Of a DNA stretch of 28,754 nt, positions 13,130 to 27,798 are shown in pieces. Every line of letters begins with the position of its first letter. Position 1 is the first letter of the stretch. The notes beneath the pieces were generated by a model. It made no database searches. It saw only the letters and a list, made by a program, of their open reading frames with translations, and was not told where the DNA came from. The translations under genes and the position numbers were made by a program. The DNA comes from a virus. Location: positions 1 through 28,754 of the IMG/VR virus record IMGVR_UViG_3300032462_000053, one strand, 5' to 3'.

Positions 13130-13168
13130 ATACCCCTACAGAAGCCTTAATGGCCTATGTAGGGGTAT
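13130..13168. terminator. Bidirectional intrinsic terminator between converging operons
   Basis: ATACCCCTACA (13,130-13,140) pairs perfectly with TGTAGGGGTAT (13,158-13,168): an 11-bp stem around a 17-nt loop that has a further short GCC/GGC pairing. Rightward transcripts meet TTTAATTT after the stem; leftward transcripts meet TCTTTTTT. It sits in the 50-bp gap between the two facing stop codons, so it can end both the late and the replication transcripts. Confidence 0.88.
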
Positions 13169-13174
13169 TTAATT

Positions 13175-13414
13175 TCAATCAGCGTTGTCTTTTACGGTTT
13201 GCCTTGCAGATGCTGCTTGCTGGTCTGCGCGGGAGAGTGCTGCGTCTGGGTTCATCCCCTGCTTCACATAGCCTTCGTAGTTCTCTTTGTGCATCTTACG
13301 GATAGCCGCTTCGTTGATTCCGGGCGTTCCGGCCAAAGCTGGGTCTAAGCCGAGGGCAACCACAACTTCTTCGTCGGTGGTCCCGGTCTTGCGGTAGATG
13401 TTGTAGCTTTTCAT
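13175..13414 (-). CDS. Small hypothetical protein, last gene of leftward operon
   Basis: A 79-aa protein (MKSYNIYRKTGTTDEEVV...). An in-frame extension to 13,549 is open, but the ATG at 13,414 has a good site (AAAGGAAC, 5 nt away) and lies just after the upstream stop, so I prefer it. The sequence is polar and helical, with Ala/Gln/Lys-rich ends (LSRADQQAASARQTVKDNAD); no membrane segment and no known motif. It shares a transcript with the Tad2-like gene 13 nt upstream and ends 6 bp before the terminator. Function unknown. Confidence 0.7.
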   Translation of the reverse strand: MKSYNIYRKTGTTDEEVVVALGLDPALAGTPGINEAAIRKMHKENYEGYVKQGMNPDAALSRADQQAASARQTVKDNAD

Positions 13415-13427
13415 ATTTGTTCCTTTG

Positions 13428-13931
13428 TTAAACAATAAACCAGTCTTTGCTAAGCATATCAGACTGGCTAGCCAACCAACCAGGAAGCATAGCGCGACGC
13501 CCCCCAGCGTTGGTAGTGTACATGTCGATGTGTGGCAGGATATCACCACAAACTAGACCTGCCCTATGGTAGGCCGACCCTGCTTTGAAGGTTACACTGC
13601 TCGTGCCGGGTACTAGCACCAACCACATGCCCCTACCATTCCAACCCTTACGGGCAACGCGGTGACCCAGTTCGAGTGCTTCAATCGCTTGGCCAAAGCT
13701 CAGCTCACCTGCATTCTCGCGGTAGGTCTTATCGAATTGTTCCTTCGGAGACCAGCTGATGTAGCCCTTGTGTCGGCTATCGTTCGCTTTTCCGTCATCG
13801 AGGTATTCGACGAGATAACCCTCATCGGCCATATCCTCTTCTTCCGGGAGTGCCCACCCACGATAGCTGTTATACTTACCACGAGACATGGGGGTAGCGT
13901 TCAGGACCTTAGTCCCAATATATTGTTTCAT
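13428..13931 (-). CDS. tad2-like: DUF2829 / Tad2-type protein with phage N-terminal domain
   Basis: A 167-aa protein with GAGGAAAT just before its ATG. Residues 77-167 match DUF2829: LSFGQAIEALELGHRVARKGWNG, GMWLVLVPG, LPHIDMYTT and a closing GWLASQSDMLSKDWFIV. The characterised member of this family, Tad2, binds the signal molecule 1''-3' gcADPR and so blocks the Thoeris defence of bacteria; many relatives are untested. Residues 1-72 form a second module (MKQYIGTKVL..., YNSYRGWALP, DEGYLVEYLDDG, GYISWSPKEQFDKTY) that I know as a frequent phage domain of unknown role. The gene has its own predicted phage promoter about 40 bp upstream. Family membership is well supported by motifs; anti-Thoeris activity is an inference. 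Confidence 0.8.
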   Translation of the reverse strand: MKQYIGTKVLNATPMSRGKYNSYRGWALPEEEDMADEGYLVEYLDDGKANDSRHKGYISWSPKEQFDKTYRENAGELSFGQAIEALELGHRVARKGWNGRGMWLVLVPGTSSVTFKAGSAYHRAGLVCGDILPHIDMYTTNAGGRRAMLPGWLASQSDMLSKDWFIV

Positions 13932-13971: not shown

Positions 13972-13986
13972 CTATAGGTACCGACT
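13972..13986 (-). promoter_or_regulatory. Predicted phage RNA polymerase promoter P1 (for the Tad2-like gene)
   Basis: On the - strand: AGTCGGTACCTATAG, then GGGCC. Thirteen of 15 positions are shared with the two other copies. The CTATAG end resembles the initiation region of T7-type promoters, putting the start at 13,972. The stop codon of the upstream 60-aa gene falls inside the motif. Promoter function is inferred from recurrence and position. Confidence 0.8.
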
Positions 13987-14154
13987 ACACAAGCCTCTAA
14001 GCCTAACGATCTCAGCCGCAGCTTCTTCGCAGGTTATGGCAATGCGGTCTTCTTTGCCCCCAGCTGCTTGCCTGATCCTCCTGCGGATTTCTGCTCGTAG
14101 CAGTAGCTTGTCTACTATATCCTGTTCTTCAAAGGGCAATTTAGATTTTAGCAT
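13972..14154 (-). CDS. Small helical hypothetical protein
   Basis: A 60-aa protein (MLKSKLPFEEQDIVDKLLL...) from the ATG at 14,154, which overlaps the end of the HNH gene by 14 nt. A TTG at 14,199 would add 15 residues but lacks better support. The sequence is charged and helical (AEIRRRIRQAAGGK, CEEAAAEIVRLRGL) with no known motif. Its TAG lies within the next promoter, so it closes the HNH transcription unit. Function unknown; coupling to the endonuclease gene suggests they are expressed together. Confidence 0.55.
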   Translation of the reverse strand: MLKSKLPFEEQDIVDKLLLRAEIRRRIRQAAGGKEDRIAITCEEAAAEIVRLRGLCSRYL

Positions 14155-14620
14155 CTTCGTATTTCTCGAGGTAAGAGACCAATTGACGTGCCAGCCCAAG
14201 GTTATCTTTTAGATGCCCAACCGCATAGTTGCAGTTGTCGCAGAGCACACCACGAACAGTGTTTGTTTGGTGGTTGTGATCTATGTTGAACCGCCTTCGC
14301 TCACTCTGGTCCCAAGGCTTTGAGCACAGCTCGCATGCCTGTTTGGTGCGCTCGTGGAATAGCAGCGCTTCTTCTTTACTTATACCGTAAACCCGGCAGA
14401 CGCGTCGGAGGTAAGAAGATAGTTGGTAATCCGGCTGGGCCTGTCGCTCCTTGTTGTACCCTTTGATCGCGACCTTACGGCGTTGGTAGGCCACTTTCCT
14501 TTGGGCTGAGAGCCTCTCTCTGTTGGCCGCCTCGTAAGCCAAACGGTATTCCCTCTTTCTGGCTGCGAAGCGTTCTTTGTTTGCTTGGTCGTAGTCCTTT
14601 CTAGCTTCTTTCGTGTGCAT
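14141..14620 (-). CDS. HNH endonuclease, endonuclease VII-type fold
   Basis: A 159-aa protein from the ATG at 14,620, chosen because GGAGGAAA lies 2-3 nt upstream and a predicted promoter start lies at 14,652; a longer frame to 14,686 would place coding sequence across the promoter. Residues 1-60 are very basic and helical. Residues 96-135 hold the zinc-HNH core: C96ELC99, IDHNH (113-117), then RGVLCDNCN with C127 and C130. This arrangement is that of the T4 endonuclease VII group, used by free-standing homing endonucleases and by junction resolvases. The sequence does not separate these two roles. Its position, with its own promoter between the reductase gene and small accessory genes, favours a mobile (homing) element. 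Confidence 0.85.
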   Translation of the reverse strand: MHTKEARKDYDQANKERFAARKREYRLAYEAANRERLSAQRKVAYQRRKVAIKGYNKERQAQPDYQLSSYLRRVCRVYGISKEEALLFHERTKQACELCSKPWDQSERRRFNIDHNHQTNTVRGVLCDNCNYAVGHLKDNLGLARQLVSYLEKYEDAKI

Positions 14621-14673: not shown

Positions 14674-16311
14674 TTAAGCCCCGCAAGTGCCACCCTTACC
14701 GGAGATATCACAAATATCAGTTTCCTCGAACGTAGTGCCCACGTTTGCGATAGCCTCAGCATACGGCACAGGTGTCAGTGGTTGACCACCACGGCTTCCA
14801 TCTGGATAGCAGGTGAAGCCCCGGAGCCGCTGCGCGTACTTAGCGAGCGTGTCCGTAAACTGTTGAACCTGGCCTTCGTTGTTACCATCAGACCCCCAAG
14901 CCGGGAGGTTGATGGTGCTGGAAATCGACATATCAACGTAGTCCTGTACATCTGCTTGGAACTTGATTCGCTTCTCATACTGAGTACTCAGGTCGAGTGC
15001 TGATTCAATCTTAGTCGGGTCCACTCCGTACTCTGTGATAAGCGTTTGTGCTGTTCCATCGACAACAAACTGGTACTTCCACTTAGTACCTTCGGTGAGG
15101 AACCTCCGCTTGTAAGCCACAGCAAAGAGGGGTTCAATGCCGGTGGTAGTGCCAGCTAGAATACCGATTGATCCTGTAGGGGCGATAGCTCGGTAACCCT
15201 TTGGGTGAGACAAATGGAAGCGATCGCAGTGTTCGTTAGCTGCTTGCTCTCCGTCTGACTTCCACGCGGCTAGCCACTTATGCAGCTCAGCTGTTACCTC
15301 ATAGCCGTAGTTACGCTTCAGCAGCCACTCGTGAATGCCCATGAGTCCCAGGCCTAGGCGTCGGTTCTTTTCCCGTACCTTATAAACCTTTGCATAAGGC
15401 AGGTCAGCACGCATCGTGCCACATACCAGAAACTTAGAAGCAAGAGCAACAACACTCTTAAAATCCTCCAGAGACGAAATATTAGCCATGTTGATGCTAC
15501 CCAAATTGCAGACATCGCTGTCGTCTTCGGAGGTAACCTCGGTACAAGCGTTGCGAAGGGTCTCATTCTGTTTGTTTCCAAAGTTGAAGCTGAACCCCGG
15601 CTCGCCATTCATCATGGCCTGCCGACAGTTCTGCTTGAAGATCTCGTTGTTCTCGATACCGTTAACGAGAGAGGCATCATCGTAGTTGACGCTGATGTTG
15701 GTCATGTCGAGAGGTGCGCTAGCGTTGAAGTCCTTGACCTTCATTGCTGCAATCTCGGGTGACCAGTTCTTTGCTGTCATGAAGTCTTGGATATCGTCGT
15801 GAGCCCAGTTAAGTGACGCATAGATGGCGGATCTCCGTGATCCACCCTGCATGACATTCCGACCGATCTCGTTGATGGCCATCATCAAAGGTACCGGACC
15901 AGAGGACGTACCTCCTGTACGCCTCAGGGTCTTGCCTTTAGGGCGCAGTCGGGAGTAGTCATTCCCGATACCGCCGCCCGTGGTCAAGCAGGACATGGAC
16001 TTCCAAGCTGTATTCGCCCAGTCCTCGCGGGTGTCCTCTTCACTACGCAGCAGGTAGCAGTTGTTGTACGCTTTAAAGTCTCGACCCGCGTAGTAGAGGT
16101 AGCGGCCTCCGGGGATGAACTTCATTTCCTTGATATACTGTTTTAGCTGCTTCTGCTCGTCGGCTGACATCAGCGCAGGCAGGGTACCCCATCGGGTGCC
16201 ACACACATCTTCGACCTGCCGCTCAGACACATTATCCCAGGTGTCATCCGGTCCTTGTGCATACTTAGCTTTGAAAATGGTTTCCCCGAACGCTGTACGA
16301 AATTGAGTCAT
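14674..16311 (-). CDS. nrdJ: Ribonucleotide reductase, class II (adenosylcobalamin-dependent)
   Basis: A 545-aa enzyme that converts ribonucleotides to deoxyribonucleotides for phage DNA synthesis. Key sites: C85 in NNCYLL and C268 in VCNLG as the redox pair; NACTEV (254-259) with C256 as the radical cysteine and E258 as the catalytic glutamate; PTGSIGILAGTTTGIEP as the phosphate-binding loop. C534 and C543 near the C-terminus fit the shuttling pair that passes electrons to the active site. One self-contained chain of this size, with no small (NrdB) subunit nearby, indicates the cobalamin-dependent type, so activity depends on B12 from the host. AAGGAT lies 5 nt before the ATG, which follows the RNA ligase stop by 3 nt. 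Confidence 0.9.
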   Translation of the reverse strand: MTQFRTAFGETIFKAKYAQGPDDTWDNVSERQVEDVCGTRWGTLPALMSADEQKQLKQYIKEMKFIPGGRYLYYAGRDFKAYNNCYLLRSEEDTREDWANTAWKSMSCLTTGGGIGNDYSRLRPKGKTLRRTGGTSSGPVPLMMAINEIGRNVMQGGSRRSAIYASLNWAHDDIQDFMTAKNWSPEIAAMKVKDFNASAPLDMTNISVNYDDASLVNGIENNEIFKQNCRQAMMNGEPGFSFNFGNKQNETLRNACTEVTSEDDSDVCNLGSINMANISSLEDFKSVVALASKFLVCGTMRADLPYAKVYKVREKNRRLGLGLMGIHEWLLKRNYGYEVTAELHKWLAAWKSDGEQAANEHCDRFHLSHPKGYRAIAPTGSIGILAGTTTGIEPLFAVAYKRRFLTEGTKWKYQFVVDGTAQTLITEYGVDPTKIESALDLSTQYEKRIKFQADVQDYVDMSISSTINLPAWGSDGNNEGQVQQFTDTLAKYAQRLRGFTCYPDGSRGGQPLTPVPYAEAIANVGTTFEETDICDISGKGGTCGA

Positions 16312-21687: not shown

Positions 21688-22116
21688 TCATTTCAAGGGC
21701 TTCAAAAATTTTACAGCAGAAATCGCTTCGTTGTACCATTTTCGTAACTCGGTTCCGGGTACCAACTCTCGCGACAGCGCTTCATTCAACCACAACTCCT
21801 GGCATTCTCGATATGTCATCATGCTCTTTGATTTGCACCACTCGATGACAACAAACGAGAAGCACTCATGGCCGATCTCTCTGATGTCTCGGTTGAGATT
21901 ATCCGACGACGATGTGTAGGACTTCCAGTTAGATTCCTTATGCATCTTGATTCTCCTGTTCCTACCAGCCGGGGGTGGCTTGGTTAGGTAGGAGACCAGG
22001 TTTTTCTTACCGATGTACTGCTGCCCGGTGGCAACGTTGTGGATCAGGTAGATGAACCCGATGGCTCCGTCTGGTCGGTCGGTGAGTGAGATCCAGTGGC
22101 CGGTGTCGTCTTCCAT
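21688..22116 (-). CDS. GIY-YIG-type putative endonuclease
   Basis: A 142-aa protein. FIYLIHN (21-27) and QYIGKKN (33-39) form the GIY-YIG pair. These are followed by a basic RNRRIKMHKESNWKSYTSSS segment and TYRECQELW (101-109) with E104 as a candidate metal-binding glutamate. This layout, including 'W..Y.SSS', is the one I know from a widespread family of small phage proteins annotated as putative endonucleases related to the T4 Seg proteins. The start lies 73 nt inside the exonuclease gene; the residues before the motif (HWISLTDRPDGAIG) match the usual N-terminus of the family, which supports that overlapping start. It could be a homing nuclease or a domesticated repair or recombination enzyme. 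Confidence 0.75.
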   Translation of the reverse strand: MEDDTGHWISLTDRPDGAIGFIYLIHNVATGQQYIGKKNLVSYLTKPPPAGRNRRIKMHKESNWKSYTSSSDNLNRDIREIGHECFSFVVIEWCKSKSMMTYRECQELWLNEALSRELVPGTELRKWYNEAISAVKFLKPLK

Positions 22117-27323: not shown

Positions 27324-27382
27324 TTAAAAGATACCTTATACCAGATGAAATAGACGATGAGAATAGATACCACAGCGATCAA
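27320..27382 (-). CDS. Very short membrane peptide (20 aa, TTG start)
   Basis: A TTG at 27,382 overlaps the TGA of the deoxyribosyltransferase-like gene, with GGGAG about 8 nt before it. The peptide is nearly all hydrophobic (IAVVSILIVYFIW) and ends YKVSFK. The stop overlaps the next ATG. A TTG 15 nt further upstream would give 25 residues. It is so short that it may instead be spacer, but the hydrophobic content and the coupling match the two genes that follow. Confidence 0.4.
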   Translation of the reverse strand: MIAVVSILIVYFIWYKVSFK

Positions 27383-27798
27383 AGGTAGTACTCCCAAACA
27401 GCCTCAACAGCTGCGTGTAGCGATGTGTGAATCTCGGTAGCGTACGCCGAGATAAACGGATGGTGGAACTGGCCTTCAGCGAGGATCACTATGATGATCT
27501 TGTTGTGGGTATGGGCGTGGGCGATCTCAGCTACTGTTCCCCACTTCTTGCCGGGGAGGTCATCTGAGAGGTTAGCTAGGATGACCGTCGAGTTGGAGAT
27601 ATCTTGGAGGTCGCATTTGAAGAGCCGGTTGGCAGCGTAGGGGCTCGTGTCCAGGATGAAGTTGGCCCTTCGGCACGGGTTGAGGGTTATGATGTCTCTG
27701 GCTGCTAGCATAGCTGTCGCTTGGTTACGCCACTTTGTTTGCTGCTCTGGGGTGAGTCCTTCGATGGGTCCAGCGAGGTATGTGTAGTTGTGTTTCAT
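27379..27798 (-). CDS. Nucleoside 2-deoxyribosyltransferase-like protein
   Basis: A 139-aa protein with the pattern of the deoxyribosyltransferase / DUF4406 superfamily: YLAGPIEGL (7-15) at the N-terminus, WRNQATAML, LNPCRR, then CDLQDISNSTVILANLS (D63 in the active-site region) and WGTVAEIAHAHTHNK with E91 as the candidate catalytic glutamate. Known relatives move or remove bases on deoxynucleosides or nucleotides and serve in salvage or in clearing unusual nucleotides. Phage versions are mostly untested. No signal peptide; cytoplasmic. The ATG overlaps the upstream stop (TAATG), and its TGA overlaps the start of the tiny membrane-peptide series. Together with DUF3310 and NrdJ it suggests a nucleotide-pool programme. 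Confidence 0.75.
   Translation of the reverse strand: MKHNYTYLAGPIEGLTPEQQTKWRNQATAMLAARDIITLNPCRRANFILDTSPYAANRLFKCDLQDISNSTVILANLSDDLPGKKWGTVAEIAHAHTHNKIIIVILAEGQFHHPFISAYATEIHTSLHAAVEAVWEYYL

Follow-up and report, generated by a model that had tools for sequence, protein, structure and literature searches.

Sponge proteins of the Tad2 and Acb4 families

The characterised members of the two protein families considered here are sponges, which bind the signals of bacterial immune systems. Tad2 of phage SPO1 binds gcADPR, while ModTad2 from Myroides binds His-ADPR (PMC13299392). HgmTad2 and SptTad2 bind cyclic dinucleotides as well, by means of a long insertion (PMC12043709). According to the same review, the gcADPR pocket comprises the loop connecting the first and second strands, a hairpin and a strand further on, and the final helix together with its preceding loop (PMC12043709). 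The second family, Acb4, comprises anti-CBASS sponges for cGAMP. SPO1 Acb4 has been assigned to the Pfam family PF13876, 3'3'-cGAMP is bound by each of the eight homologs tested, and several Acb4 homologs carry extensions that have been left unexplained (PMC11722364). That study reports that the structures of Acb4 and Tad2 are not homologous (PMC11722364), and both proteins are described as homotetramers (PMC12043709, PMC11722364). So far, sponge proteins have been studied domain by domain.

The protein P0001, described below, is read as a phage immune-signal sponge that consists of a Tad2-family domain and an accessory module; the probability of this reading is estimated at about 0.6.

The P0001 gene and its surroundings

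The window, that is, the whole stretch of DNA analysed, is a 28,754-base IMG/VR virus record with a T7-like type of replication. Its minus strand encodes a single-subunit RNA polymerase, a family A DNA polymerase, a primase-helicase and an exonuclease, as well as an RNA ligase, a DNA ligase and a ribonucleotide reductase, and large genes are located on the plus strand toward the other end. A megablast search using 12.7 kb of the window against 50,697 phage records found no relative, and the relatives of its DNA polymerase are at most 33% identical. The open reading frame list and the translation show P0001 to be a real reading frame of the minus strand, running from the ATG at 13931 to the TAA at 13428 and encoding 167 amino acids. 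The features of the locus are as follows.

13428-13931, minus strand: module-Tad2 fusion gene (P0001), 167 aa and stop; phrog_872, AlphaFold2 model
13716-13931, minus strand: N-terminal module, residues 1-72; no Pfam match, modelled separately
13431-13703, minus strand: Tad2-like domain, residues 77-167; PF11195, Foldseek, VIA-align
13635-13646, minus strand: GWNG motif, residues 96-99, in the loop between the first two strands
13479-13511, minus strand: NAGGRRAMLPG, residues 141-151, hairpin with the additional GGRR that marks the P0001 clade
13440-13478, minus strand: C-terminal motif W152..S155..D158....D163-W164, around the last helix
13932-13942, minus strand: AGGA stretch resembling a ribosome-binding site, upstream of the P0001 ATG (from the sequence only)
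13175-13414, minus strand: next gene downstream of P0001, 79 aa, no known family
13972-14199, minus strand: gene upstream of P0001, up to 75 aa, no known family

The P0001 gene is the penultimate one in its minus-strand block and is preceded by the endonuclease VII gene and a small gene of no known family. The start of the downstream gene, at 13414, follows the P0001 stop codon at a distance of 14 bases. Neither of the small flanking genes is conserved beside relatives of P0001; a sequence-identical copy of P0001 is present in a second IMG/VR contig (L002), and the upstream gene was found elsewhere only in the contig encoding the identical protein. The promoter scan revealed no sigma-70-like site.

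Several other features of the window were recorded. A perfect 11-base inverted repeat, ATACCCCTACA...TGTAGGGGTAT, followed by a T-rich stretch, lies at 13130-13168 between the converging gene blocks and, judging by these letters, is a possible two-way terminator. The gene at 21688-22116 belongs to phrog_447, named 'NAD synthetase' in PHROGs, whereas Pfam assigns it to SegE-type GIY-YIG endonucleases (E 4e-30); the PHROGs name is probably wrong. The product of 27379-27798 is similar to nucleoside 2-deoxyribosyltransferases, and is possibly a nucleotide salvage or signal-related enzyme. The large subunit of ribonucleotide reductase (14674-16311) is just 545 aa long with a weak match to a B12-type insertion domain, and looks shortened.

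The C-terminal Tad2-like domain

The earlier note on this DNA had read residues 77-167 as a DUF2829 domain and had suggested comparing a predicted structure with Tad2; both lines of evidence bear this assignment out. The Pfam model PF11195 (Tad2-like, formerly DUF2829) matches residues 78-167 with 78.2 bits and E 6.8e-22, the curated cut-off being 25 bits, while nothing in NCBIfam matches P0001. All credible sequence matches of P0001 in the PDB are Tad2 proteins, namely SptTad2, HgmTad2/AcrIIA7, ModTad2 and SPO1 gp34.65. The full-length protein was modelled with AlphaFold2 as a single chain, with 99 aligned relatives from viruses and prophages as input, giving pLDDT 90.6 and pTM 0.66; the pTM is modest, so each domain is reliable by itself and their mutual placement is not. 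In the Foldseek search with this model, all 24 matches at E <= 0.001 were Tad2 chains, the best being 8wjd (E 7.6e-8). VIA-align gave Z-scores of 12.7 for SptTad2, 11.9 for HgmTad2, 11.6 for ModTad2 and 10.3-11.1 for SPO1 Tad2, while the highest-scoring unrelated chain reached 5.2. Judged by its sequence and predicted fold, the C-terminal part of P0001 is a genuine Tad2-family domain.

The best fold matches, SptTad2 and HgmTad2 (AcrIIA7), are 39-41% identical to P0001 over 88-89 residues and share with it the motif GWLASQ-D-M. Unlike P0001, they have no N-terminal module, and the insertion with which they bind dinucleotides is longer than its counterpart in P0001. SPO1 Tad2 (gp34.65) and ModTad2, which originates from a prophage of Myroides odoratus, have the fold and the motifs of P0001 and an insertion of similar length, but they are stand-alone domains of about 89 aa, whereas P0001 is a fusion, and on the domain tree they fall in clades other than that of P0001. 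N-terminal stretches of other kinds were also observed on Tad2 domains (L079:4827-5249 and L058:4836-5504); the stretch of L058 recurs without Tad2 in L332:1510-2280.

Conserved positions and the GGRR hairpin

The four ligand-binding Tad2 proteins of solved structure agree without exception in 22 alignment columns, and P0001 is identical at 18 of them, a count made at the level of motifs, not of contacts in coordinates. The positions kept include GWNG (96-99), R94, W152, S155, D158, D163 and W164, and the motifs themselves read RVARKGWNG at residues 91-99 and GWLASQSDMLSKDWF at residues 151-165. Besides being the same in all four solved proteins, GWNG is shared by 96-99% of module-Tad2 proteins. 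Both GWNG and the W..S..D block fall within the elements that form the gcADPR pocket in the review cited above (PMC12043709). A loss of these pocket-bearing motifs, looked for because it would speak against the sponge proposed in the earlier note, was not found, and the proposal survives the comparison. The four changes are K87E, K100R, F103W and A161S, three of them conservative and K87E non-conservative.

This high conservation of motifs bears on another view of P0001, according to which it is a generic early phage protein with no role in defence, both of its domains being used otherwise, for example in binding a phage or host metabolite. The functions of P0001 are deduced from its family, and no function is known for the small genes beside it, which leaves some room for this view; the characterised members of Tad2 and Acb4, however, are all signal sponges, and so such a role seems rather improbable.

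Apart from P0001, 24 sequences carry an additional GGRR in the hairpin that precedes the W..S..D block. Among them, L083 is the same protein as P0001, and two others (L029 and L031) are devoid of the module. In the tree, the P0001 clade comprises 20 rows with SH-aLRT 97, and the four solved Tad2 proteins all lie outside it. A change in ligand preference is possible, since the hairpin is one of the elements contributing to the pocket in PMC12043709; as far as can be judged from the alignment, K87E together with the clade-specific GGRR insertion could alter the ligand.

The probable ligand

The solved proteins differ in the length of the insertion that follows GWNG and precedes the later strands. 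By alignment count, which concerns length only, it comprises about 25 residues in P0001, about 39 in HgmTad2, about 34 in SptTad2 and 23 in SPO1 Tad2 and ModTad2. This suggests that P0001 does not possess the dinucleotide-binding insertion. The short insertion, near in length to those of SPO1 Tad2 and ModTad2, therefore favours a signal of the ADP-ribose type, which can be proposed as the ligand of P0001 with moderate confidence by analogy. Transfer of a particular ligand to P0001 is nevertheless unsafe because its clade holds none of the four solved proteins. The earlier note had proposed a candidate anti-Thoeris sponge and had named 1''-3' gcADPR, the signal trapped by the tested Tad2; the Tad2 fold and motifs agree with the first part, whereas the second is too specific, as the ligands of the tested Tad2 proteins differ.

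The same comparison weighs on the assumption that the Tad2 domain of P0001 binds cyclic dinucleotides and is thus directed against CBASS and not against Thoeris. In its favour, SptTad2, which was solved in complex with cGG, and HgmTad2 bind dinucleotides (PMC12043709), and of the solved proteins these two come nearest to P0001 in fold and in the GWLASQ-D-M motif. Their dinucleotide site, however, lies in the long insertion (PMC12043709), which is short in P0001, and SPO1 Tad2, where it is likewise short, does not bind 3'3'-cGAMP (PMC11722364). An anti-CBASS function of this domain is improbable.

HgmTad2 is deposited in the PDB as AcrIIA7, and several phage homologs of P0001 are annotated as 'anti-CRISPR protein', so that an inhibitor of Cas9 of the AcrIIA7 kind was also considered. 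These annotations rest on homology only, and a 2026 review lists AcrIIA7 as an anti-CRISPR with conflicting reports (PMC13131331). It is highly improbable that P0001 acts in this way.

The preferred reading thus remains a sponge for an ADP-ribose-derived signal. By analogy with the family, the Tad2 domain of P0001 would most likely be tetrameric and would trap, without cleaving it, a signal such as gcADPR or His-ADPR. The trapped signal would come from a TIR protein of the Thoeris type.

The N-terminal module

The N-terminal stretch of about 72 residues is matched by no Pfam model even at E 1. Its recurrence in phages, claimed previously, was confirmed by a tblastn search using residues 1-72, which found the module in 127 phage records. 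Modelled alone from 93 rows, it reached pLDDT 93.2 and pTM 0.79, with elements predicted in the order strand-helix-strand-strand-helix (strand 10-14, helix 17-24, strand 38-43, strand 57-62, helix 63-69). On the strength of this model, the module is confidently predicted to fold autonomously.

Comparison of the module with solved sequences and structures revealed no convincing relative. Chromodomains make up most of its Foldseek list, at E >= 4.4, with Z at most 2.7 and rmsd 3.5 over 45 residues. These are noise-level matches, and a chromodomain (chromo/SH3-like) fold is not claimed. The near-invariant residues of the module include the aromatics Y4, Y39, Y43, Y57 and W60. The mean identity of the module exceeds that of the Tad2 domain (0.61 versus 0.44), but this is not taken as evidence of a more conserved module: the rows came from scans in which the start of the module itself served as a pattern, and when loci were collected by their Tad2 domain only, the two parts proved about equally conserved.

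The fusion family and its link to Acb4

The fusion is real, as the earlier note held, and is not peculiar to P0001. The family phrog_872 matches residues 1-167 with E 2.2e-52, that is, over the whole length, and is widespread. Full-length relatives are encoded by phages of Vibrio, Klebsiella, Pseudomonas, Acidovorax and E. coli, including the laboratory phage N4 (gp49), and by prophage-like contigs of Pseudomonadota, Bacillota and Bacteroidota. N4 gp49, also a member of phrog_872, has the same two domains in the same order and is 40% identical to P0001, with tblastn covering residues 3-167; the GGRR hairpin insertion distinguishes P0001 from it. The module-Tad2 fusion is thus already present in databases, and it is uncharacterised in the literature searched.

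In the IMG/VR scan with the module alone as a query, 43 of the 45 distinct proteins found were fusions of the module to Tad2 or to PF13876, the family of Acb4. They comprise 35 module-Tad2, one module-crAss001_48-Tad2, six module-PF13876 and one module-PF13876-Tad2 proteins, the remaining two being the module alone; the query was taken from a Tad2 fusion, so the scan detects its own kin best. Further orders of domains are PF13876-module-Tad2 (L042) and PF13876-module (L227), and in phage isolates the module is also joined to the crAss001_48 domain or to unclassified tails. Independent support for the identity of PF13876 with Acb4 comes from N4 gp48, which matches chain 9e4w of solved Acb4 (E 9.4e-4). 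Acb4, whose fold is unrelated to that of the Tad2 domain of P0001, takes the same module in fusions, and its genes adjoin module-Tad2 genes. The module is an accessory of two unrelated sponge families, Tad2 and Acb4. The previous description of its role as unassigned was right, but it missed the link to Acb4 alongside Tad2.

Pfam did not reveal PF13876 in P0001, and a home-built Acb4 profile did not reveal Acb4 in the window, which may be a fragment.

Some observations concern the partners themselves. Pfam names PF13876 after 'N4 Gp49', yet in the N4 record (L082:2606-3459) this domain lies in gp48, and gp49 is the module-Tad2 protein. The small crAss001_48 domain (PF21825), for which no function is stated, occurs in fusions with Tad2, with the module, with both and with Acb4 (L240:929-1441, L094:2001-2723, L231:2796-3497, L234:2242-3015, L313:2492-2989, L222, L242), and is possibly a further sponge-associated part. 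Two module-Acb4 fusions (L129:2001-2900 and L130:402-1301) end in a DUF4406-like domain, a weak match just below the Pfam cut-off.

Gene pairing and mobility of the module

Within the stretches covered around module-Tad2 genes, 19 of 112 distinct loci contain an Acb4 gene, mostly adjacent to the module-Tad2 gene. In N4-like records present in both match lists, the two genes are on the same strand and no more than about 0.8 kb apart, with Acb4 just upstream, and in N4 the end of gp48 (Acb4) is the beginning of gp49 (module-Tad2). The window of P0001, in contrast to N4, contains no Acb4 gene. Relatives of N4 gp48 are detectable in 797 of 50,697 phage records, so adjacency by chance would be rare, although this is a rough yardstick and not a test.

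In an early count of neighbours, no case of the module and Tad2 as separate adjacent reading frames was found in viral loci. The case most like a split gene is Vibrio phage 1.205.O, where a crAss001_48-Tad2 gene lies beside a module gene with a different tail. On the tree of 129 Tad2 domains, the presence of the module requires 22 changes, at least nine of them forced by well-supported branches, versus 34 changes for shuffled module labels; the alignment of the Tad2 domain is short, and the exact number of changes is soft. This indicates that the module has been repeatedly joined to, or lost from, Tad2 domains, even within the P0001 clade, where L029 and L031 do without it.

Possible role of the module

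As the fusions show, the module is an accessory domain, predicted to fold separately, which phages put on both Tad2 and Acb4 sponges. Tad2 domains with and without the module interleave on the tree, and therefore the module probably does not form the Tad2 pocket itself. Instead, we tentatively suggest, at somewhat below even odds, that it holds the subunits of the sponge together or tethers them to a partner. Since both Tad2 and Acb4 are homotetramers, a role in assembly or tethering is preferred to that of a second pocket.

Such a second pocket would make P0001 a double sponge, in which the module binds another nucleotide signal and one polypeptide disarms two defence systems. The joining of the module to two sponge families, and to both at once, would suit this arrangement, as would its many near-invariant residues, including aromatics, of the sort that a pocket for a small molecule or a peptide might have. 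However, the conserved aromatics may be merely those of the core, known sponges bind their ligands at protomer interfaces of small oligomers, and the module has no solved relative for comparison; a double sponge is unlikely, if less so than the other alternatives discussed.

Returning to the assembly or tethering role, a wider version of it can be offered with more doubt. The module may be a portable functional part, common to sponges of two unrelated families, which brings them to the source of the signal or builds mixed assemblies for several signals, and a module-Acb4-Tad2 protein would then disarm CBASS and Thoeris in one chain.

Significance

The interesting part of P0001 is the module. 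A small unnamed domain swapped between Tad2 and Acb4, and at times joining both, points to sponges assembled from parts, and its fusion partners offer a route to recognising further sponge families. In the laboratory phage N4, gp48 (Acb4) and gp49 (module-Tad2) constitute a ready-made pair in E. coli K-12. The occurrence of the module on two unrelated kinds of sponge suggests that phages possess a modular anti-defence toolkit.
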